Shown here: piece by piece, positions 8,209 through 30,489 of the stretch | Numbering within the stretch: the stretch's first letter is position 1 | Layout of the letters: the number at the start of each line of letters is the position of its first letter | Assembly (NCBI GenBank): GCA_029258325.1 | Contig: JARHZF010000100.1 | Location: 1 to 64,000 of the forward strand | DNA length: 64,000 nt | Reading direction: 5' to 3' | Origin: Anaerobiospirillum sp. | Lineage (GTDB): Bacteria > Pseudomonadota > Gammaproteobacteria > Enterobacterales > Succinivibrionaceae | Made by a program: the position numbers and the translations under genes | The notes under the pieces: generated by a model | Databases searched by the model: none | Seen by the model: the letters and a program-made list of their open reading frames with translations, nothing else | What the model was told of the DNA's origin: nothing

Positions 8209-9054
8209 ATGCTAGAACTTGCTGTTTTAGGTAATCCTATTGAACATTCATTATCACCTATAATTCATAATTTTTTTGCAAAAGAAACAAATATACAAAT
8301 TTCTTATGAAAAAATCTTAGTTCAAGATGAGTTTGAGAGCTTTATAAATACTTTTAAAAAGCATGCTTATGGTTGTAATGTAACAATACCGTTTAAAGAG
8401 GATGCTTATAAAATAGCAGATAAGCTTTCAGATGAAGCTAAAATAGCAAAGGCTGTAAATACACTTTTATTTAAAGATAATATTATTTATGGTCATAATA
8501 CAGATGGTCTTGGCTTAATCTTAGATTTTAAAGATAAAGGTATTTCTCTTTTAAATAAGAAAATTTTATTAATAGGAGCAGGTGGTGCAAGTTTAGGTAT
8601 TTTAAAACCTTTATTTGATTCTAATATTTTAGATATAACCTTAGTAAATCGCACTAAAGAAAAAGCTCTTTATCTTAGAGATTATTTTGTACAAGAAATT
8701 AAAAATACAAAAGATATCTTTCATGTTTTAAGTTTAGATAGTCTTAATAATAATTTAGATTTATCTTTTGATATTATTATTAATGCAAGTGCATCAAGTC
8801 TTTATAATGAATTACCAAATATAAGTGATGCTATATTAAAAAAAGCACATTGTGTTTATGATCTTATGTATACAAAAGATGGTGATACTATTTTTACTAA
8901 GCATTGTAGAGAGCTTAATGTACAACACTCTATTCAAGGTTTAGGTATGCTTATAAGACAAGCAGCATTAAGCTTTGAGCTTTGGACAGAAAAAAAAGTA
9001 AATACTTTATCTTGTGAGCAATATATGCTCTCTTATTTAAAAGAAAATAGATAA
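8209..9054 (+). CDS. aroE: Shikimate dehydrogenase AroE
   Basis: AroE reduces 3-dehydroshikimate to shikimate with NADPH. The shikimate-site motif GNPIEHSLSPIIHN (the SLS pair), NVTIPFKEDAY with catalytic Lys, and NTDGLG with catalytic Asp are all present. The nucleotide loop GAGGASLGIL follows, then NRTKEKA, an NADP-preferring pattern. The C-terminal GLGMLIRQAALSFELW helix is also conserved. The 281 residues are near the usual 272. It is the last gene of the plus-strand run, and its stop codon lies inside a hairpin shared with the convergent HNH gene. Confidence 0.96.
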   Translation: MLELAVLGNPIEHSLSPIIHNFFAKETNIQISYEKILVQDEFESFINTFKKHAYGCNVTIPFKEDAYKIADKLSDEAKIAKAVNTLLFKDNIIYGHNTDGLGLILDFKDKGISLLNKKILLIGAGGASLGILKPLFDSNILDITLVNRTKEKALYLRDYFVQEIKNTKDIFHVLSLDSLNNNLDLSFDIIINASASSLYNELPNISDAILKKAHCVYDLMYTKDGDTIFTKHCRELNVQHSIQGLGMLIRQAALSFELWTEKKVNTLSCEQYMLSYLKENR

Positions 9055-9070
9055 ATAACTTATCTATTTT
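9044..9070. terminator. Hairpin overlapping both convergent stop codons
   Basis: A perfect 11-bp stem (AAAATAGATAA / TTATCTATTTT, loop ATAAC) covers the last codons of aroE on one strand and the last bases of the HNH gene on the other. T-rich sequence leaves both sides, so it may terminate both transcripts. The stem is A/T-rich and therefore weak. Confidence 0.5.
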
Positions 9071-10205
9071 ATCTAATATCATCATCTGTTAGTACATCAA
9101 AACCACTATCTTTTGCAACAAAGATTAGCGGTGCTAACTTATTATGCATACTCTTAAAAAAGTTACTTTTATCTACTTTTATCAAAGTATCAAAAGAACA
9201 TTTGCACAAATCTTCATAAGATTGAGTTATCTTATTTTTAGGTTTGCTAATTTGCCCATGTGCTATGTATTGCACAATAGAATAGTGTAATGAGGAAAGG
9301 TGTTCTATATATATTTCATTTGGTATTTTATTACTCTTTTTAGAGTTGGTACTTTGATCTAATGGAGATAGGTTATAAAAGCTATTATTTAAAATAAAAG
9401 ACCAAGGAATAAAGTGATCTAGTGCATAATTATTTTTATCTATAATGATACTTTCATTAAAGATAGAGCATAAAGGAGTTATATTTAAAATCTCATCAAA
9501 AACCTTATGTTCATCAGTAAGGCTATCTCGTAAAATTTCAGGTTTTATTTTAGTTGAAATATTAGGAACACCTGCATTTAATTTTTCTAAATAAACACAA
9601 AGATGATAGTAGGCAAATGATTTTAAGATGTAAAAATTACTTTTAAGATAGGGTATATAGGTGTCATTTATATCAAGATATAGATCTTTATCTTTTTTTA
9701 TAATTCTATAAAGACCTTTATTTACTTCAAAGTTAGATAAGAAATTATCAAAGATATATTTATTAGGTGTAGCATTACATTGAAACTTATGAGGTGTCCA
9801 AGGAGTTAATAATTTATATGGAACATATTTTAAGAGATTTTTTATAGCACTCTTTAGTTCCTTATCTTTGTCTTTATATACAATTTCATTTAATAAAATA
9901 TAAATATCACTGTCTTTTGTATCAATGCTTAATTTATATTTATTTTGTATAGTGTGACAAATTGAGGATATTTTATCTGAAAAACCAAAATTTAATTTAA
10001 AAAATAGAGCAGGATACCAAGCAAGTACAATCATTTTTATTGATATATCATCTAATAAAATTAAAGGTCTTTGATTTTCTTTAATTTTATCAAGAACAGA
10101 ATCAAGAAGAGCTATAAAAAAGAAAAATTTATAGCTTGCTGAAGTATTTTGAAAAATTAAAGCAAGCTTATTTATATCTTGATTGTTACCATATGGTATC
10201 TGCAT
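9069..10205 (-). CDS. HNH endonuclease domain protein
   Basis: This 378-residue protein ends in an HNH nuclease core. ALDHFIPWSF (His264) is followed by the Asn of YNLSP (278) and NSKKSNKIP (about 287-295), the pattern of HNH enzymes with a DHFxPWS centre. Only one cysteine (246) is seen where zinc-bound members have CxxC pairs. The N-terminal 200 residues start with IFQNTSASYKFFF and are not a domain I can name; similar N-termini occur in solitary HNH proteins. There is no signal peptide or toxin-delivery domain, so the protein is probably cytoplasmic. It lies 3 bp behind a small Imm51-like gene with which it must be co-transcribed. A defence nuclease or nuclease/antitoxin pair is possible, but the role is not known. 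Confidence 0.72.
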   Translation of the reverse strand: MQIPYGNNQDINKLALIFQNTSASYKFFFFIALLDSVLDKIKENQRPLILLDDISIKMIVLAWYPALFFKLNFGFSDKISSICHTIQNKYKLSIDTKDSDIYILLNEIVYKDKDKELKSAIKNLLKYVPYKLLTPWTPHKFQCNATPNKYIFDNFLSNFEVNKGLYRIIKKDKDLYLDINDTYIPYLKSNFYILKSFAYYHLCVYLEKLNAGVPNISTKIKPEILRDSLTDEHKVFDEILNITPLCSIFNESIIIDKNNYALDHFIPWSFILNNSFYNLSPLDQSTNSKKSNKIPNEIYIEHLSSLHYSIVQYIAHGQISKPKNKITQSYEDLCKCSFDTLIKVDKSNFFKSMHNKLAPLIFVAKDSGFDVLTDDDIR

Positions 10206-10208
10206 AAA

Positions 10209-10568
10209 TTAATCCCAAGGAATTTCGCTTTCATTTTCTTTTACAAAAGCAATTAAATCATCTTGATTTTGTACAAAGAAATTAATAGTGTCACGAATTT
10301 CATTGATTTTAAGCTCATTTTCTTTTGTGTTCTCATAATAAATAACAAAAGAACCAGCCTCTGAATCAAAGTGCATGCCATCAAGAAGATTATTACAATT
10401 GTTTTCAATATAGTAATTTATTAATACTTCCCAATTGTAGCCATTCATATAGGCTTCATCACAAATATCATTAATTTTTTCGCCAAGTTCAATAATAACA
10501 CAGTCTTCTACGTTTAAAGTTAAGGATATAGAATCTTGTTGCTTTGTTATCGTGATATATTCGTTCAT
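10209..10568 (-). CDS. Imm51-family immunity-like protein
   Basis: The 119-residue acidic protein carries the Imm51 pattern: MNGYNWEVLINYYIENN near residue 40, DGMHFDSEAGSFVIYYE near residue 63, and the end FVKENESEIPWD, which matches the usual ENxDEIxWD tail. Imm51 proteins protect cells against toxins of polymorphic toxin systems. Here it precedes a nuclease gene by 3 bp rather than following a secreted toxin, so it may be a neutralising partner for the HNH protein or may simply be co-expressed with it. A GAGGT ribosome binding site and a good promoter lie directly upstream. Confidence 0.75.
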   Translation of the reverse strand: MNEYITITKQQDSISLTLNVEDCVIIELGEKINDICDEAYMNGYNWEVLINYYIENNCNNLLDGMHFDSEAGSFVIYYENTKENELKINEIRDTINFFVQNQDDLIAFVKENESEIPWD

Positions 10569-10598
10569 TTATAACCTCAGTAAAACAAAAGTCTACAC

Positions 10599-10626
10599 AT
10601 TATATAGAGTATATAATTATTTACAA
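10599..10626 (-). promoter_or_regulatory. Promoter of the Imm51-like/HNH operon
   Basis: Read on the minus strand, TTGTAA and TATAAT are separated by 16 bp, and the -10 box lies 30 bp before the ATG of the Imm51-like gene. This is a close match to a sigma-70 promoter. Confidence 0.55.
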
Positions 10627-10696
10627 TATTTATAGTATTAAGTCTATTAGTTGTATAATATCATAATTATTTAATTAAACTATTTAAGAGTCTTTT

Positions 10697-21276: not shown

Positions 21277-24200
21277 TTAAAAAGCATAAGAGTAATTAAA
21301 CATAATATCTATGTTGTTTACATACTTTGAGAAAGTATCACTTACTGTGAACTTAAATGTATGTGTATCCTCTTGATAGTATACAGATGTACCTAAAGTA
21401 TATCTTTCACTATCTAAAACTCTAGTTGATAAACGATTAACTTTATCAGAACCTGTAAATGACATATCTTGACTAAAGAAACCTTTACCTATAGTTTTAT
21501 CAATAGATGCAGTATGTTTTATATATAGCTCTTTATCAAAGAAGTTAGCTTTATAACCAATATCAGCACCAACTACAATTGATGTAAATAAATTGTTTTC
21601 AGCATAGTTCTTTATAACTTCTTCATTTTGCATATATAAACTTAAATCTTTTGCCATTAGATAATTAATATTTGCAAGAGCAAAAGTATTTAAAGTGAAA
21701 TTATCAAAGCTAAAACGATAGTTTAAATTAAATTGAGCATTTAATGAATTGGCATCAAAACTACCATTTAGCTTATCAAATCTTAAATCATGCTCTAAAT
21801 CATTAGATTGAGTATTGTATGAGAAAATTGCACCTAATGAATATTTATCAAAGTCATAGTTTAAATAATAGGCTAAACCTAAATTATTACTATCTTTATT
21901 TACATGATAAAAGTCACCTGTATTGTGTGTATCAATATGTGCATATGATACATAAGCACCTTGAGTAAAGTTATTTTCAGTAGTATCAAGTCCTATAACA
22001 AAACCCTTTAAATTAGATTTTAAACCATAATTATAAGCACCACATTCATAACCATGAACATTGCTATGCTCATATACAGCTGTAGACCATAGATTATAAA
22101 ATCTATCTGCAATATCTAATTTTAATGAAGGCATAGTATTATCTTTTAATCTTTCAGTAACTAAAGACATACTTTTTCTTGCATTATAGATAACATCACT
22201 ATAAGCACCTGATATAGCACCTGCTTTAGATGCAGCTTCAAAACTTTCAGCTACTTCTTCATCTGTAAGACCATTATTTTTGTCTAACATAGAATCAATA
22301 AAATCATTGTCATTTGGATTTATAATATCAGGAACAAGATCAGGATTTATATTGTCTGTAATATTATTATCCTTATTAAATACTGATGTTAAAACAAGAT
22401 CTTTTTCCTCTTGCTTAATAGAAAGATCCATTAATCTGTTTGCAGATAATAAAAGTACACCTTTTTTGCTGTATTTGTCATAGTTTTGAATACCATTTGC
22501 AGAAGCATCTTTTGTGTCACTAATTAAGATATATTTATCTTGTTTATTTTTATTAATACCATAAACATAAAGAATTGAGCCATCTTCAAAATTATGAGTA
22601 GCACCATTACCTTGAATTAAAGCTTCATCCTTCTTTATATCTGAAAAATCAGCAACAAATAAGGTATCTTTTGCAACATATAGATTGTCATTTACATTTC
22701 TTTTACCTAAATGTAGATGATTTTTAGTTAAATTTAAGGTTTTATTATTATTTAATCTACTTATGGCAAAAACACGTTTGTAAAGATAGTCATCAAAATC
22801 TTTACCATATTTGTAGCTTAAATTATCTATAGATATAGTAAATACTTTCTTTAACTCTTCAATATCTAATCTACCAAGAGATAAATTTGCAATATCATTT
22901 AAAAAGAAAGTATTAGTACCTTTATCACCATCTTCTATATTTTTAACTTGTAAAAAAGCTCTTCTTTTATTATCAATCTCTGCACCATGAACAAAGAACT
23001 TTGTATCTCCATATTGATTAGTCTTAAGATTATCAACAATTACACCAAAAATAGTTTGATTTATAGGATCTTGTTTTTGTATTCTTGGCATAGTATCTAA
23101 ATTAGCAGTTACATAAAAACCTTTTTTTATTTCTTTAACTTCATTAATATGATGAGTTCCATTTGCAAAGAAAACATTTGTTGCAGATAAAGAACCATTA
23201 ATAGTCATATTATCTTCTGCATTTAATCTATTTACATTAATATCATTAGTTACAACATTACTTCCTTTGAATACTGCAAGATTAAGTGAACTAGTATCAT
23301 TACCTATATCTTTATTAAAAGTGTAATTACCAGTAATCTCTAAAATATTATTACTTGCATTTTCATCATTAGAATGATTAGAACCACCAACAATAGGGAG
23401 ATCAATTACACATCTATTATTAGGACATCTTTCAATATTCTTTAAATCTTTTGGAATAAAATTAAATAAAGATAATCTACTATTGTGATCAATTACAATA
23501 GGTTTATCACTAGTGCTATTTTCTCTTCTTATAGCACCTGCTACAGTTAAGTGAGAGTTCTCGCCATTTTTATGTCCTACAATTAAATCATGATCTTCAA
23601 GAATAACTTTTTGAATTGCAAGTGTTTGTTTACCTACACTACCAACTTCAAAATGTGTTTTTGTACCTTTTTCTTGAGTTTCATCAATATAATTATAAGG
23701 TTGACCACCAAAAGATACATCTAATATGCCTTGTCTTGTAATAGGGAAATTAGGATCAACATGATTTGGATCACCACCTAAAATAGTAATAGTCATATCA
23801 GGATTTTGTTGACTTAAATGCTTAAGTTCTTCTAAAGTCCAAGGATCTCTACCTTTATCTAAAATAAGATAACCTGTACCTGCACTATTAATAAAATTTT
23901 GTAATTTTAATGTATTAAGATCAACTGTTACACCTGGTGTGGTATTTTCAGTTAGAGTGTAATAATCACCTCTTACAGTACCATAATCATTTATATTAAA
24001 TATATCATTATGTTTTGTAGTAGGATCTTCAAAATTAATTTGAGCAATTTTAGGTAGAAGTACAAAACCTGCAGACACATTTATATCCGATGTATCACTA
24101 AGATATAGATTATAAAATGTAGAATTACCACCATCTATATTTAGTTGTCCTTTATTTAGTAATGAAATAGGTTTTGTAAATACCCAATCACCATTTAATA

Positions 24201-25626
24201 CATATAAGCTACCTTTACCATGACCTGTTACTATATTATTTTTGATCTCACCACCAATTTTGCCTACATAAAATTCTTTTTGATAACCAAATAGATCTTT
24301 TAGTCCAAAAACAAGATCTGTTTTATCTGTATAAATATCATAACCACTATTTGCAACATCATCTGAAAAGCCATTCATAGTGATTAAACGATTTGAATTT
24401 AAGTGATAATGAAAATGAGGAAAAGGTTCTTGTGAAGTAAAATTAAATTTACTTGCAATAATAGTAGCATTGCCTATTTGATCAAGGGCACTTGTTGTTT
24501 TTATATCACCAATACCTTTAATTGCTACAATAGCACCAGTATCTGCACTTATATGCATATTTAAGTGATTTAAATCTGTATCTTCTCTTAGACCTAAATG
24601 ACCTCTTCTTTCTATATGTGCAAAACCATTATTGTAGAAATAAAGATCATTATAATCATGAGTACCAACACTGTCTGCTAATACAACACCATGCTCTTTG
24701 ATAGTGAGTTTGTGTGTTTCTACTCGTCCATCACTTTTTATATCTAAAATGCCCTCAATAGTTCCACCTTCACGGTTTTTAGTTTTAATTACAGAATTAT
24801 TGCTAACTTCCATTTTTCCTTCATTAAAAATAGAAAGAAAATCTATATCTGCATTACCACCTTTTGCATAGAATTTACCTTGACCCCAAAGAGTTAAGTG
24901 TTTAGCATTAAAGATACTATTTTTATTTAAATTAACTGTACTACCCTTTACAGTAATTTGACCACCATCTAATGTTCCATTTATGTTTAAGGTAACACCA
25001 CGATTATCAGAAAACTTACCAATCATTAGGTTTCTACCATAGTATCCACCTGTCATAGTGCTAGGGTCAAAGAATCTATCGCCACCTATTCTAAGTTTGC
25101 CATTTAAATTTATAATGGAATTATGTTCAGCATTATTACCACCAACCATTTCAATTGATTGATCTATTGCTGTATTTAATTGAACATTTCCATCTATATT
25201 TAAAATGGCTTTATGATTATTTGTTCCTTGAACTTGTAATAAATTAAAGTCATCATCATTGACATTTTTAAACACTGTATATTTTGTATTTTTACCAATA
25301 TTTACAATGCTATCAGCAAAGTTACTAGCTTTGACTGTTAAATTAGATGTAGTAATATCAGTATTTATGTTAACAGTTGTATCGATTTTTGAGTCTTGAT
25401 GACCAAAAATAGCATGTCCTTTTTTGGTTTGTCCTATAACTTTGTTGATATCTACAGTTCCTATATCAGGAAGAGTTAAAATATCATTATCATCTAAAAC
25501 AATTTCAGATGTGTTTTTATCAATAGTAATAGCAGAAGAGACAGTTGAATTTGAAAATAAAGCAAGACACATTAATGCATATATTTTTTTGAAATGCATT
25601 TTTTTGTTTTTTGTTTTTGTTTTCAT
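21277..25626 (-). CDS. Large autotransporter (type Va), copy 1
   Basis: This 1449-residue surface protein has an extended signal peptide: a lysine-rich n-region, then IYALMCLALFSNSTVSSA. A long passenger is made of repeated short beta-strand units (NLNGKL, TLNINGTLDGG and similar), typical of a right-handed beta-helix. A C-terminal autotransporter barrel of about 280 residues begins near LKLDIADRFYNLWSTAVYE and ends in YSYAF, with the aromatic last residue used by the Bam machinery. The passenger has one private cysteine pair, RCPNNRC. It is paralogous to the gene at 26302-30489 along its whole length. Function may be adhesion or autoaggregation, but no enzymatic or cell-binding motif is visible. 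Confidence 0.9.
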   Translation of the reverse strand: MKTKTKNKKMHFKKIYALMCLALFSNSTVSSAITIDKNTSEIVLDDNDILTLPDIGTVDINKVIGQTKKGHAIFGHQDSKIDTTVNINTDITTSNLTVKASNFADSIVNIGKNTKYTVFKNVNDDDFNLLQVQGTNNHKAILNIDGNVQLNTAIDQSIEMVGGNNAEHNSIINLNGKLRIGGDRFFDPSTMTGGYYGRNLMIGKFSDNRGVTLNINGTLDGGQITVKGSTVNLNKNSIFNAKHLTLWGQGKFYAKGGNADIDFLSIFNEGKMEVSNNSVIKTKNREGGTIEGILDIKSDGRVETHKLTIKEHGVVLADSVGTHDYNDLYFYNNGFAHIERRGHLGLREDTDLNHLNMHISADTGAIVAIKGIGDIKTTSALDQIGNATIIASKFNFTSQEPFPHFHYHLNSNRLITMNGFSDDVANSGYDIYTDKTDLVFGLKDLFGYQKEFYVGKIGGEIKNNIVTGHGKGSLYVLNGDWVFTKPISLLNKGQLNIDGGNSTFYNLYLSDTSDINVSAGFVLLPKIAQINFEDPTTKHNDIFNINDYGTVRGDYYTLTENTTPGVTVDLNTLKLQNFINSAGTGYLILDKGRDPWTLEELKHLSQQNPDMTITILGGDPNHVDPNFPITRQGILDVSFGGQPYNYIDETQEKGTKTHFEVGSVGKQTLAIQKVILEDHDLIVGHKNGENSHLTVAGAIRRENSTSDKPIVIDHNSRLSLFNFIPKDLKNIERCPNNRCVIDLPIVGGSNHSNDENASNNILEITGNYTFNKDIGNDTSSLNLAVFKGSNVVTNDINVNRLNAEDNMTINGSLSATNVFFANGTHHINEVKEIKKGFYVTANLDTMPRIQKQDPINQTIFGVIVDNLKTNQYGDTKFFVHGAEIDNKRRAFLQVKNIEDGDKGTNTFFLNDIANLSLGRLDIEELKKVFTISIDNLSYKYGKDFDDYLYKRVFAISRLNNNKTLNLTKNHLHLGKRNVNDNLYVAKDTLFVADFSDIKKDEALIQGNGATHNFEDGSILYVYGINKNKQDKYILISDTKDASANGIQNYDKYSKKGVLLLSANRLMDLSIKQEEKDLVLTSVFNKDNNITDNINPDLVPDIINPNDNDFIDSMLDKNNGLTDEEVAESFEAASKAGAISGAYSDVIYNARKSMSLVTERLKDNTMPSLKLDIADRFYNLWSTAVYEHSNVHGYECGAYNYGLKSNLKGFVIGLDTTENNFTQGAYVSYAHIDTHNTGDFYHVNKDSNNLGLAYYLNYDFDKYSLGAIFSYNTQSNDLEHDLRFDKLNGSFDANSLNAQFNLNYRFSFDNFTLNTFALANINYLMAKDLSLYMQNEEVIKNYAENNLFTSIVVGADIGYKANFFDKELYIKHTASIDKTIGKGFFSQDMSFTGSDKVNRLSTRVLDSERYTLGTSVYYQEDTHTFKFTVSDTFSKYVNNIDIMFNYSYAF

Positions 25627-26301: not shown

Positions 26302-26302
26302 T
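26277..26302 (-). terminator. Hairpin after autotransporter 2
   Basis: Perfect 8-bp inverted repeat ACATACAA / TTGTATGT with a 10-nt loop, beginning in the stop codon. The following sequence is A/T mixed rather than a clean T tract, so terminator function is uncertain. Confidence 0.4.
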
Positions 26303-29300
26303 TAAAAAGTATAATTATAATTTAACACAAGATCAAAATCACATTTGTACTTAGAAAAAGTATTATTTATTGAAAATTTATAATTATGACTTCCATTATA
26401 ATAAGAAATAGATGAACCTAAAGTAAATCTATTATTATCCACAACTCTTGATGTAAGATATGCAGTATCATTAGTAGAACCAATAATAGAAACCCCTTGA
26501 GTAAAGAAACTACTGCCTATGGTTTTTTCAAATGCAAAAGAATGTTTTACATTAAATTCTTTATTAAATACATTAAATAGGTAGCTAACATTAGCACCAA
26601 GCTTGATTGATTTAAATAATTTATTGTTAGCATAATTTTTTATAACTTCATCATCTTGCATATATAAACTTAAATCTTTTGCCATTAAATAATTTAAATT
26701 TGCCTCTGCAAAAGTGTTTAATGCAAATTTATCAAAGTTAAAACAATAGTTTAGGTTTAATTGTGCATTTAGGGTATTAGTATTAAAGTTGCCATAAAGC
26801 TTATTAATTTTTATATCATGCTCTATATCATTTGATTGAGTATTATATGAAAAGATTGTACCTAAGGAATATTTATCAAAATTATAATTTTGATAATAGG
26901 CAAAACCTAAATTCTTGCTCTTTTTACTTATATGATTTAAATCACCTGTATTATGTGTGCTAATCTTTGCATAAGATAGATAAACACCATGAGTCAAATT
27001 ATCTTTTGTGCTATCAACACCTACAATAACACCTTGTAAACTAGATTTTAGACCATAAGTATAAGAACCACTTTCATAACCATGAATACTACTGTGCTCA
27101 TACATAGCTGTAGTCCAAAGATTATAATTTCTATTTGCTATATCTAACTTTAAATCTTGAGCATAACCATTATTTATCTCATAAATTCTATCTTTAACTA
27201 AAGACATACTTTTTCTTGAGTTATATATAACATCATTATAAGCTCCAGATAGTAAAGATACTTTAGTAGCACTATCTATAAATTTGGATACTTCTTTGTC
27301 CTCAAGACCATTAAAGTTATTTAAAACAGAAGATAAAAATTGATTGTTCTCATTTTTTATAACTAAAGATTGAAGATTTTGATTTAAAGTATTTAAAATC
27401 TTGTTGTCTCTTTTATACACAACTTTTAATACTAAATCTTTATCCTCTTGTTCTATAAATAAATCAACAAGTCTATTTGCAGATATAACATGAACACCTT
27501 TTTTACTATTGTTATCATAGTTTTTTATATTATCTGATGCATTTTGTGTATTATCTATTAAGATAAATTTCTTATAGTTTTTATCACTAATTCCATAAGC
27601 ATATATGCTAGAACCATCTTCAAAATAATAAGACTCACCACTACCCTTAATTAATGGTTCATTTTCTTTTATATTGGTAAAATCAGCTATAAATAAAGTG
27701 TCTTTTTTTAGATAAAAGGAAGCTTTATCATGCTTTGCTATACCAATATAAAGATGGTTTTTCTTTAAATTTAGTTTTGAGCCATTTGTAAGTGTACTTA
27801 CACCTATAATACGCATAAATTCATAATTTTTAGCAAGTTCTTTATGATGTTCTTTTATATGATCTAAAGATAAAAGATTAGCTTTCTTTAAAGCATATAA
27901 ACCAAAGTTACCAAAAGTTAATGCACCTAAATCATCTAAAACAAAACTATTAATACCTTTATCACCATCCTCTATGCTTTTTATTTGTAAAAAGCCTCTC
28001 ATATTATTTTTTTGAGAACCTTTTATATTAAAGTTTGCATCACCATTTTGATTTGTTTTTAGTGAATCTACTTTAATATAAACATATTCATCCCTAATAG
28101 TGTCTCTAAAAATCTCATAAATAGATTTGTCTAAAGAATCTAAATTAGCATCAGGATCAATAACAAAATATTTTTTTATAGACTTAAGTTCATTAATATG
28201 ACTATCACCATAAGTAAAAACAGCATTATCCTTTAAACTTAATGCTCCTTTTATTTTTAAATTGCCCTCAACTTCAAGTTTTGAGACATTTACATCTTTA
28301 TTAGCAATTAAATGTCCATTTTTTTGTACTGAAAGATTAAGCTTTCCTATATCATCACCTATATCTTCAAGAATTGCATAAGGTCCTATAATATTTAAAT
28401 AATTATTATCATCATGAGTACCACCAACAATAGGGATGTTTACAGTATACATTTGATTATTTCTAGATCTTTTTATAGTATCACGAGGTCTAAAATCAAA
28501 TAAATTAAGTTTACTTTTGTAGTCAATAACAATAGGGGATTTTATACCACCATCTACTCTTGTAATATCTTGAGCTACTGTAAGTTTAGATTCAGGTCCA
28601 TTTGCATCTCCTATTTGTAACTTATGATTTTTTAAAATAACTTCTTTAATTGCTAGGGTTTGTTGACCTATCTGACCTACATTAAAATCTGTTTTATGTT
28701 GTTTTTCTACTGTCTCATCTATATAGTTATGAGGCTGACCACCAAAGGTAATATCTAATATACCTTGATTTCTAATAGGAAAATTATCTTTATTGTAAAT
28801 ATGCTCACCTAAAATAGTAATTGTCATTTTAGGTCTTTGTTCATTTAAAATTTTATGCTCTTCTTGTGTATGTTTATATCCTCTTTTATCTAAGATTAGA
28901 TAGCCATTACCATTTATATCAATAATATCCTTTAATTTTAAGGTTTTATAATCAATATTTTGATTTGCCTTTGCATTAGTTAGGTCAAAGTAGTTGCCTT
29001 GTACTTGACCCATATTTGTTATAAGAATATTGTTTTTATGTGTTTTACAAGAAACACATGTTTTATCAAAAATATCTTTTTCTAGGAGTAAAAATCCAGA
29101 AGATACATTGATTTTACCATTAGGACTTATTTTTAATTTATGAAGATTTGTATTTCCTCCTAATATATTAAATACACCATTATTTTTAATTTCTACACTT
29201 TTTAGATCCCAATTACCACCTTGTACAGATAAATTACCTGTACCAGTACCTGTTATAATGGTATTTTCTATATTGCTACCTTGTTGTGTTTGTCCATAAA

Positions 29301-30489
29301 ACTCATGTTGATATCCTTTTAAATCATTAAGACCTAAAACAAAATTACTATTATCTGTATAGATTTTTTTAGTGTTATCTATATCTTTAAAACCATGTGT
29401 ACTTATAAAACGATCATTTTTTAAATGATAACCATCTATATCACTTGTTTTTAAATCAAATTTATTAGCAATAATAGTGGCATCTTGAATGAGGTTAAGT
29501 TTAGGATCATCAAGATCCATTGTAGCAATACCTTTAATTGCAATAACACCATCTTTATCAGTAAAAAGGTAGTCTTTTAAATAATTTAAAGAGGTATTTT
29601 CTCTTAAAGCTAAGTGACCTCCTGACTTTATACTTACATAACTATAAGGATCTACTTCAAGAGTATTATTTTGAGTCATACCTATATTATTAGTTATTAA
29701 AACGCCATTTTTTTCTATAAATAAGTTTTTAGCAACAACTTTACCTTTTTCTTTAATATCTAAAAGACCTTCAATAGTACCACCTAAATCTTTAACATTT
29801 TCTATATATGCACCATTATTAACAATCATTTTGCCTTCATTAAAGATATTAAAGAAATCAACTTTTGCATAAGAATTTGCATTTGCAAAAAGACTGCTTG
29901 CAAGCCAAAGATTTATAGATTTAGCATTTATTTGACCATTTGCATTTAAATTTAAAGTACTTTTAACTAAAGTTAATTCTGCAGAGTGTAATTTACCATT
30001 AACATTTACAGTAAGTCCTTGTTGTTTTACATAGCTACCTAATTGCACATTACGATTAAATTTAAGATCGCTATCTTTCTTATTAGTGCCAACATAAAGA
30101 AAACCATTTATATTTAAAATAGAGTTATGTTTTGCATTTTCTCCACCTAAAACCATAACGTTATTAGAAGATGTCTTAGCGTTTAAATATAAGGTACCAT
30201 CGACATTTAAAGTTGCACTATTATTCTTCTCTCCCTCAATTTTTAATACATTTGGATCTAAAACTTCTGTAATAGTATAAGTAGCATTTTTATCAATAGT
30301 ATATACAACACTGTTTTTATCATTAGCAGAAATAGCTAAGCTAGATGTTTTTACATCATCTTTTATAACTATATTATCTATATTTTTATCTAAAGCATAA
30401 GATGAAAAGTTTAAAGCAATAAGAGCAAAACTTATCAATCTAAAAGCTTTACTAAAATGAAATTTATTTTTATTAAGATTATTTTTCAT
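26302..30489 (-). CDS. Large autotransporter (type Va), copy 2
   Basis: This is a 1395-residue paralogue of the preceding autotransporter with the same plan. A signal peptide (AFRLISFALIALNFSSYA) is followed by a beta-helix passenger with units such as SILNINGFLYVG. A conserved central block with QGILDITFGGQPHNYIDE is shared with copy 1 (QGILDVSFGGQPYNYIDE). The C-terminal barrel ends in NYNYTF. Copy 2 has its own cysteine pair in the passenger (DKTCVSCKTHK) at a place where copy 1 has none, and lacks the pair of copy 1. The 675-bp spacer makes separate transcription likely. The two may be alternative surface proteins. Confidence 0.9.
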   Translation of the reverse strand: MKNNLNKNKFHFSKAFRLISFALIALNFSSYALDKNIDNIVIKDDVKTSSLAISANDKNSVVYTIDKNATYTITEVLDPNVLKIEGEKNNSATLNVDGTLYLNAKTSSNNVMVLGGENAKHNSILNINGFLYVGTNKKDSDLKFNRNVQLGSYVKQQGLTVNVNGKLHSAELTLVKSTLNLNANGQINAKSINLWLASSLFANANSYAKVDFFNIFNEGKMIVNNGAYIENVKDLGGTIEGLLDIKEKGKVVAKNLFIEKNGVLITNNIGMTQNNTLEVDPYSYVSIKSGGHLALRENTSLNYLKDYLFTDKDGVIAIKGIATMDLDDPKLNLIQDATIIANKFDLKTSDIDGYHLKNDRFISTHGFKDIDNTKKIYTDNSNFVLGLNDLKGYQHEFYGQTQQGSNIENTIITGTGTGNLSVQGGNWDLKSVEIKNNGVFNILGGNTNLHKLKISPNGKINVSSGFLLLEKDIFDKTCVSCKTHKNNILITNMGQVQGNYFDLTNAKANQNIDYKTLKLKDIIDINGNGYLILDKRGYKHTQEEHKILNEQRPKMTITILGEHIYNKDNFPIRNQGILDITFGGQPHNYIDETVEKQHKTDFNVGQIGQQTLAIKEVILKNHKLQIGDANGPESKLTVAQDITRVDGGIKSPIVIDYKSKLNLFDFRPRDTIKRSRNNQMYTVNIPIVGGTHDDNNYLNIIGPYAILEDIGDDIGKLNLSVQKNGHLIANKDVNVSKLEVEGNLKIKGALSLKDNAVFTYGDSHINELKSIKKYFVIDPDANLDSLDKSIYEIFRDTIRDEYVYIKVDSLKTNQNGDANFNIKGSQKNNMRGFLQIKSIEDGDKGINSFVLDDLGALTFGNFGLYALKKANLLSLDHIKEHHKELAKNYEFMRIIGVSTLTNGSKLNLKKNHLYIGIAKHDKASFYLKKDTLFIADFTNIKENEPLIKGSGESYYFEDGSSIYAYGISDKNYKKFILIDNTQNASDNIKNYDNNSKKGVHVISANRLVDLFIEQEDKDLVLKVVYKRDNKILNTLNQNLQSLVIKNENNQFLSSVLNNFNGLEDKEVSKFIDSATKVSLLSGAYNDVIYNSRKSMSLVKDRIYEINNGYAQDLKLDIANRNYNLWTTAMYEHSSIHGYESGSYTYGLKSSLQGVIVGVDSTKDNLTHGVYLSYAKISTHNTGDLNHISKKSKNLGFAYYQNYNFDKYSLGTIFSYNTQSNDIEHDIKINKLYGNFNTNTLNAQLNLNYCFNFDKFALNTFAEANLNYLMAKDLSLYMQDDEVIKNYANNKLFKSIKLGANVSYLFNVFNKEFNVKHSFAFEKTIGSSFFTQGVSIIGSTNDTAYLTSRVVDNNRFTLGSSISYYNGSHNYKFSINNTFSKYKCDFDLVLNYNYTF

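Follow-up and report, generated by a model that had tools for sequence, protein, structure and literature searches.

Proteins of the Imm51 family confer immunity to polymorphic toxins and, in the sections of the survey of these systems drawn on here, are recorded with Tox-URI1 and not with HNH_4 nucleases (PMC3482391). There is a precedent for immunity proteins with a second occupation, since those of RHS elements can act as intracellular type II antitoxins (PMC7043789). HNH nucleases are also known from DNA phosphorothioation (PT) loci, either as proteins that combine wHTH, SAD and HNH domains or as DndI/SspE, with DUF262 and HNH (PMC10853773, PMC11662687). Here we describe a locus of Anaerobiospirillum sp., probably a gut member of the Succinivibrionaceae (the host family below), in which an Imm51 gene stands immediately before a gene for an HNH_4 nuclease; the window, that is, the whole stretch of DNA analysed, comprises 64,000 nucleotides. 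The reading we prefer, to which we give a probability of about one half, is that a nuclease of defence type, from an uncatalogued family, reached this site together with an orphan Imm51 gene.

The layout of the pair is as a first-pass annotation of the same DNA had described it: two open reading frames (ORFs) on the minus strand, 3 bp apart, with Imm51 first. The Imm51 gene (10209..10568) starts with ATG and encodes an acidic protein of 119 aa (pI 4.05); a ribosome site motif, GAGG, lies ahead of its start (10575..10578, minus strand). Beyond the 3-bp gap (10206..10208, minus strand) follows the nuclease gene (9069..10205), which also starts with ATG and encodes a basic protein of 378 aa (pI 8.4). 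The nuclease gene shares the reading frame of Imm51, beginning one codon past the Imm51 stop, and has no clear ribosome site before it, suggesting that its translation is probably coupled to that of Imm51. The first-pass annotation had also credited the pair with a good promoter of its own. The site, TTGTAA-16-TATAAT (10599..10626, minus strand), agrees with the consensus at 10 of 12 positions, yet it does not rise above chance: the region, whose DNA is 28% GC, contains fewer promoter-like sites (10) than its shuffles (16.5 +/- 3.9), and the claim was therefore dropped. At the other end, an inverted repeat between the convergent ends of aroE and the nuclease gene (9035..9079, no strand assigned) is likely a two-way terminator. 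Elsewhere in the window are a TerD family protein (84-662, 286 bits) and two tandem, similar large ORFs of 1449 and 1395 aa (21277-25626 and 26302-30489), which look like paralogous autotransporters.

The surroundings of the pair are indeed housekeeping, with tsaC and aroE on one side and rsmJ on the other. In 29 of 29 other host-family genomes checked, rsmJ comes immediately after aroE, in the same orientation. In the window the two are split by the Imm51 and nuclease genes, on the opposite strand, the interrupting segment (9055..10696, no strand assigned) containing only these two genes and their flanks. Because the genes together break an operon that is continuous in all 29 relatives, they look like one inserted cassette, most simply acquired, both genes at once, in a single event. 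The GC content of the pair is close to that of the neighbouring genes, and the ends of the segment show no convincing direct repeats that could represent a target-site duplication. One could argue instead that two unrelated acquired genes entered the same intergenic site by separate insertions and are neighbours by chance, with no functional link. This would agree with the scattered occurrence of both families and with the fact that the pair does not recur (see below); two same-strand insertions 3 bp apart in a conserved operon are, however, less likely than one, and we consider such an origin improbable.

The Imm51 assignment made earlier is borne out by Pfam: the protein matches PF15595 over its full length (residues 7-113) with 80.0 bits, against a gathering cut-off of 29.8, and the NGYNWE, EAGSFV and ENESEIPWD motifs are all present. 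Beyond Pfam, PADLOC, NCBIfam and PHROGs returned nothing solid for it, and its structural model (pLDDT 89.9) has no Foldseek match in the PDB at E <= 0.001. It is the sole match above the family cut-off in its own genome and among 57 host-family genomes, and a search with it against 399 Pseudomonadota genomes returned only itself. Neither a polymorphic toxin nor a polyimmunity array lies beside it, its neighbours being aroE, the nuclease gene and rsmJ, and no RHS repeat protein was found in the genome. This missing context lowers the likelihood that the protein acts in toxin immunity and leaves its family match intact. Outside the host family, Imm51 was found in 4 of 399 Bacillota and 6 of 297 Bacteroidota genomes. 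The closest relative found (40% identity) comes from a viral contig, where it belongs to a polyimmunity array that also includes Imm21; the Bacillota copies (34-36% identity) are orphans between acetyltransferase genes, and the Listeria copy adjoins another small gene. Three Bacillota genomes (L153, L154, L155) keep Imm51 between two acetyltransferase genes with no toxin near, which may mean that the function of some Imm51 proteins lies elsewhere than in toxin immunity.

The second gene had been called an HNH nuclease, and it is one by its Pfam match: HNH_4 (PF13395) scores 34.7 bits against a cut-off of 22 over residues 254-295 (9321..9446, minus strand), the DHFIPWS motif is present, and the catalytic residues Asp263, His264 and Asn287 are intact and are invariant across a 44-member alignment. 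The nearest solved domains are the HNH domains of Cas9. PADLOC, NCBIfam and PHROGs matches are restricted to the Cas9 HNH, and a Foldseek search with the AlphaFold2 model (pLDDT 93.3, pTM 0.89) found local resemblance to Cas9 HNH domains only and nothing at E <= 0.001 in the PDB or among viral proteins. By analogy with these Cas9-like domains, the substrate of the nuclease would be DNA. Outside the HNH motif no Pfam family was found. The N-terminal domain (residues 1 to ~240; 9486..10205, minus strand) is conserved, mostly helical in the model and without a solved relative, and it is possibly a recognition or regulatory domain. A search of genome contigs matched 276 relatives, of which the analysis covers the 80 that were retrieved nearly full length; the N-terminal domain and HNH_4 are conserved together along the whole protein. 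Judged by these sequences, the nuclease belongs to a widespread, apparently uncatalogued and barely described two-domain HNH_4 family; the literature searched contained no published description of this family or of an HNH-HIT pair. In a tree the window nuclease groups with long-branched host-family members, and since long branches meet there its placement is uncertain. Some relatives depart from the common form. The copy on Synechocystis plasmid pSYSM (L028:5743-7119) carries an extra N-terminal HTH-like stretch; a separate HTH gene lies just upstream in other relatives; one gene (L002:1501-2550) is broken by an in-frame TAG and has an unassigned 89-aa ORF just upstream; and another (L189:1495-2642), between dndB and dnd_rel_methyl, is broken into two ORFs.

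The presence of an Imm51 gene, from a family of polymorphic-toxin immunity proteins (PMC3482391, as far as the sections drawn on go), could mean that the nuclease is a toxin whose delivery part has been lost, with Imm51 as its original immunity gene. The first-pass annotation had seen no delivery domain in the nuclease, and this holds true: where a polymorphic toxin would carry a fused delivery or trafficking domain, the N-terminus is the conserved domain of the nuclease family itself. The entire 378-aa length corresponds to a conserved family of free-standing nucleases, no RHS element was found in the genome, and HNH_4 is not among the toxin HNH clades named in those sections (PMC3482391). 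We regard descent from a secreted toxin as very improbable.

Within the host family the nuclease gene occupies varied sites and is alone in most of its 14 relatives (about ten genomes), with a HIT gene behind it in three genomes. In 65 of 78 sampled loci with room for a downstream gene, the nuclease gene is immediately followed, in the same orientation, by a methyltransferase (MT) and/or HIT gene, most often one encoding a single MT-HIT protein; these loci span Bacteroidota, Clostridia, Chloroflexota and Proteobacteria. The N-terminal (MT) part of the MT-HIT protein resembles the N-terminus of dnd_rel_methyl (TIGR04096), at a score below the cut-off. In Prevotella the HNH, MT and HIT parts are fused in one 723-aa ORF (L053:4965-7136), which supports a functional link between them. 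The HNH_4 - MT/HIT operon is widespread in gut Bacteroidales (L037-L116, directly downstream of HNH; for example L038:3844-5007), where small HTH genes are often found just upstream of the nuclease. At four loci an extra gene separates HNH from MT-HIT, of the HTH_73 type in L070 and L090 and another ORF in L054 and L091. No MT-HIT or HIT gene lies downstream of the window nuclease; this partner is the commonest in the family, not a universal one. The sole HIT relative in the window genome is a HinT-like protein (28%) away from the pair, and the usual HIT partner is absent.

Relatives in Proteobacteria adjoin DndE, DndB and dnd_rel_methyl genes, all scoring above cut-off, and one relative (L065) stands beside a PT-dependent endonuclease, which binds phosphorothioated DNA. 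Plasmid-borne relatives lie near genes for cysteine desulfurase, DUF4007, an AAA-ATPase and DUF4276. Because none of the 57 host-family genomes, the window genome included, has DndC, a Dnd role cannot apply unchanged in this host; dnd genes, at the locus or in the genome, accompany only distant relatives. At a threshold of 1e-15, 110 neighbour proteins of the nuclease family matched 208 PADLOC models; an equal number of proteins drawn at random from a dozen of the genomes matched 29. The comparison is coarse: a single protein may hit several models, the controls were not paired with individual loci, and Bacteroidales make up most of the sample. These defence-rich neighbourhoods support the view that the nuclease lineage is defence-linked. 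No other adjacent Imm51 and HNH genes were found.

The last result comes from searches in both directions. A profile built from seven Imm51 proteins, which recovered 12 of 12 positive-control loci, found no Imm51 at any of 110 further nuclease-family loci (two duplicates and several distant members included); within the data searched, then, no other genome has the pairing. Conversely, none of the surveyed Imm51 loci has a member of the nuclease family beside it: there is none within 1.5 kb of the Bacillota (4/399) and Bacteroidota (6/297) copies; viral contigs yielded one relative of the nuclease (L117) and five of Imm51, with no pair among them; and in phage and plasmid collections HNH occurs mainly on cyanobacterial plasmids and Imm51 in Listeria, never together. 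The first-pass annotation had proposed a toxin/antitoxin or defence module and had named beforehand, as a finding that would speak against it, HNH homologues without the small gene. With Imm51 lacking at 110 of 110 loci, and about ten genomes of the host family carrying the nuclease alone, the proposal finds no support as far as a recurrent system is concerned. The conserved pairing across genomes that marks type II toxin-antitoxin modules is thus lacking here. Since its host-family relatives carry the nuclease alone, no antitoxin is needed there, and the nuclease seems unlikely, from these gene contents, to be toxic enough to require one. This weighs against reading the genes as a toxin-antitoxin pair but leaves room for a regulator in this particular lineage.

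Because translation of the nuclease looks coupled to that of Imm51, recruitment of Imm51 as a private inhibitor deserves consideration. The inhibitor would be made first, bind the nuclease and hold it inactive until stress or a phage removes it; in its action the pair would then resemble a type II toxin-antitoxin or abortive-infection module. Such a role would fit the 3-bp spacing, the Imm51-first order and the in-frame nuclease start without a ribosome site, the joint insertion of both genes, the acidic protein (pI 4.05) next to a basic one (pI 8.4), the missing HIT partner and the ability of RHS toxin immunity proteins to serve as type II antitoxins inside the cell (PMC7043789). It is hard to reconcile with 110 nuclease loci devoid of Imm51, with Imm51 loci devoid of the nuclease, with host-family relatives that retain the nuclease and no antitoxin, and with Tox-URI1, not HNH_4, as the recorded associate of Imm51 in the sections drawn on (PMC3482391). 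We consider it possible, though tentatively so. A more specific version, in which Imm51 replaced the HIT/MT partner in this lineage and is now a translationally coupled inhibitor of a defence nuclease of Dnd lineage, is rather doubtful.

Under the joint arrival that we prefer, the nuclease, a stand-alone member of the widespread HNH_4 family that is marked by the conserved N-terminal domain, would be an intracellular defence effector of the restriction or abortive type, presumably cutting DNA. Its partners elsewhere are the MT-HIT protein or Dnd genes, neither of which adjoins it here. As a mobile nuclease it would have entered the aroE-rsmJ operon jointly with the orphan Imm51 gene, and Imm51 would most likely keep its usual function, that of an acquired immunity protein against an incoming polymorphic toxin. 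The shared transcript would then reflect the assembly of the cassette and not neutralisation of the nuclease by Imm51. Some observations speak against this reading: the compact Imm51-first order, in-frame coupling and joint insertion fit a functional pair, no RHS repeat protein was found in the genome, and the lack of DndC in the host family limits any Dnd role. If the pair is functional after all, it would show how intracellular nucleases come under the control of captured secreted-toxin immunity proteins, a step that has often been surmised; in the more specific version, such an immunity protein would now serve as the controlling subunit of a defence effector inside the cell. Even if it is not, the nuclease points to an uncatalogued HNH_4 - methyltransferase - HIT operon of gut Bacteroidales with ties to DNA phosphorothioation.

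The pair shares with type II toxin-antitoxin modules, including the orphan RHS toxin/immunity pairs of Salmonella (PMC7043789), two genes with the small acidic partner first, but it is not conserved. Its first product is like other Imm51 (PF15595) immunity proteins in its full-length, 80-bit match and the same NGYxWE / DPEAG pattern; it differs in preceding an intracellular HNH_4 nuclease, without an adjacent polymorphic toxin gene, whereas the pairing recorded in the sections drawn on is with Tox-URI1 and not HNH_4 (PMC3482391). With Cas9 the nuclease has in common the D-H...N catalytic residues and a local match to the HNH domain, confined to residues 250-324; unlike Cas9, it has no RuvC, bridge helix or guide-RNA parts, and its N-terminal 240 aa form a helical domain peculiar to its family. 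In contrast to the Dnd-linked HNH endonucleases, no SBD, SRA or DUF262 domain was found in it, and neither its genome nor its host family has dndC; those enzymes are nevertheless HNH nucleases at PT loci, and relatives of the window nuclease adjoin dndB, dndE and dnd_rel_methyl. The plasmid neighbourhoods of its relatives, in turn, are similar to settings known from loci for phosphorothioation and for BREX type 4 (PMC12839542; PMC10853773).
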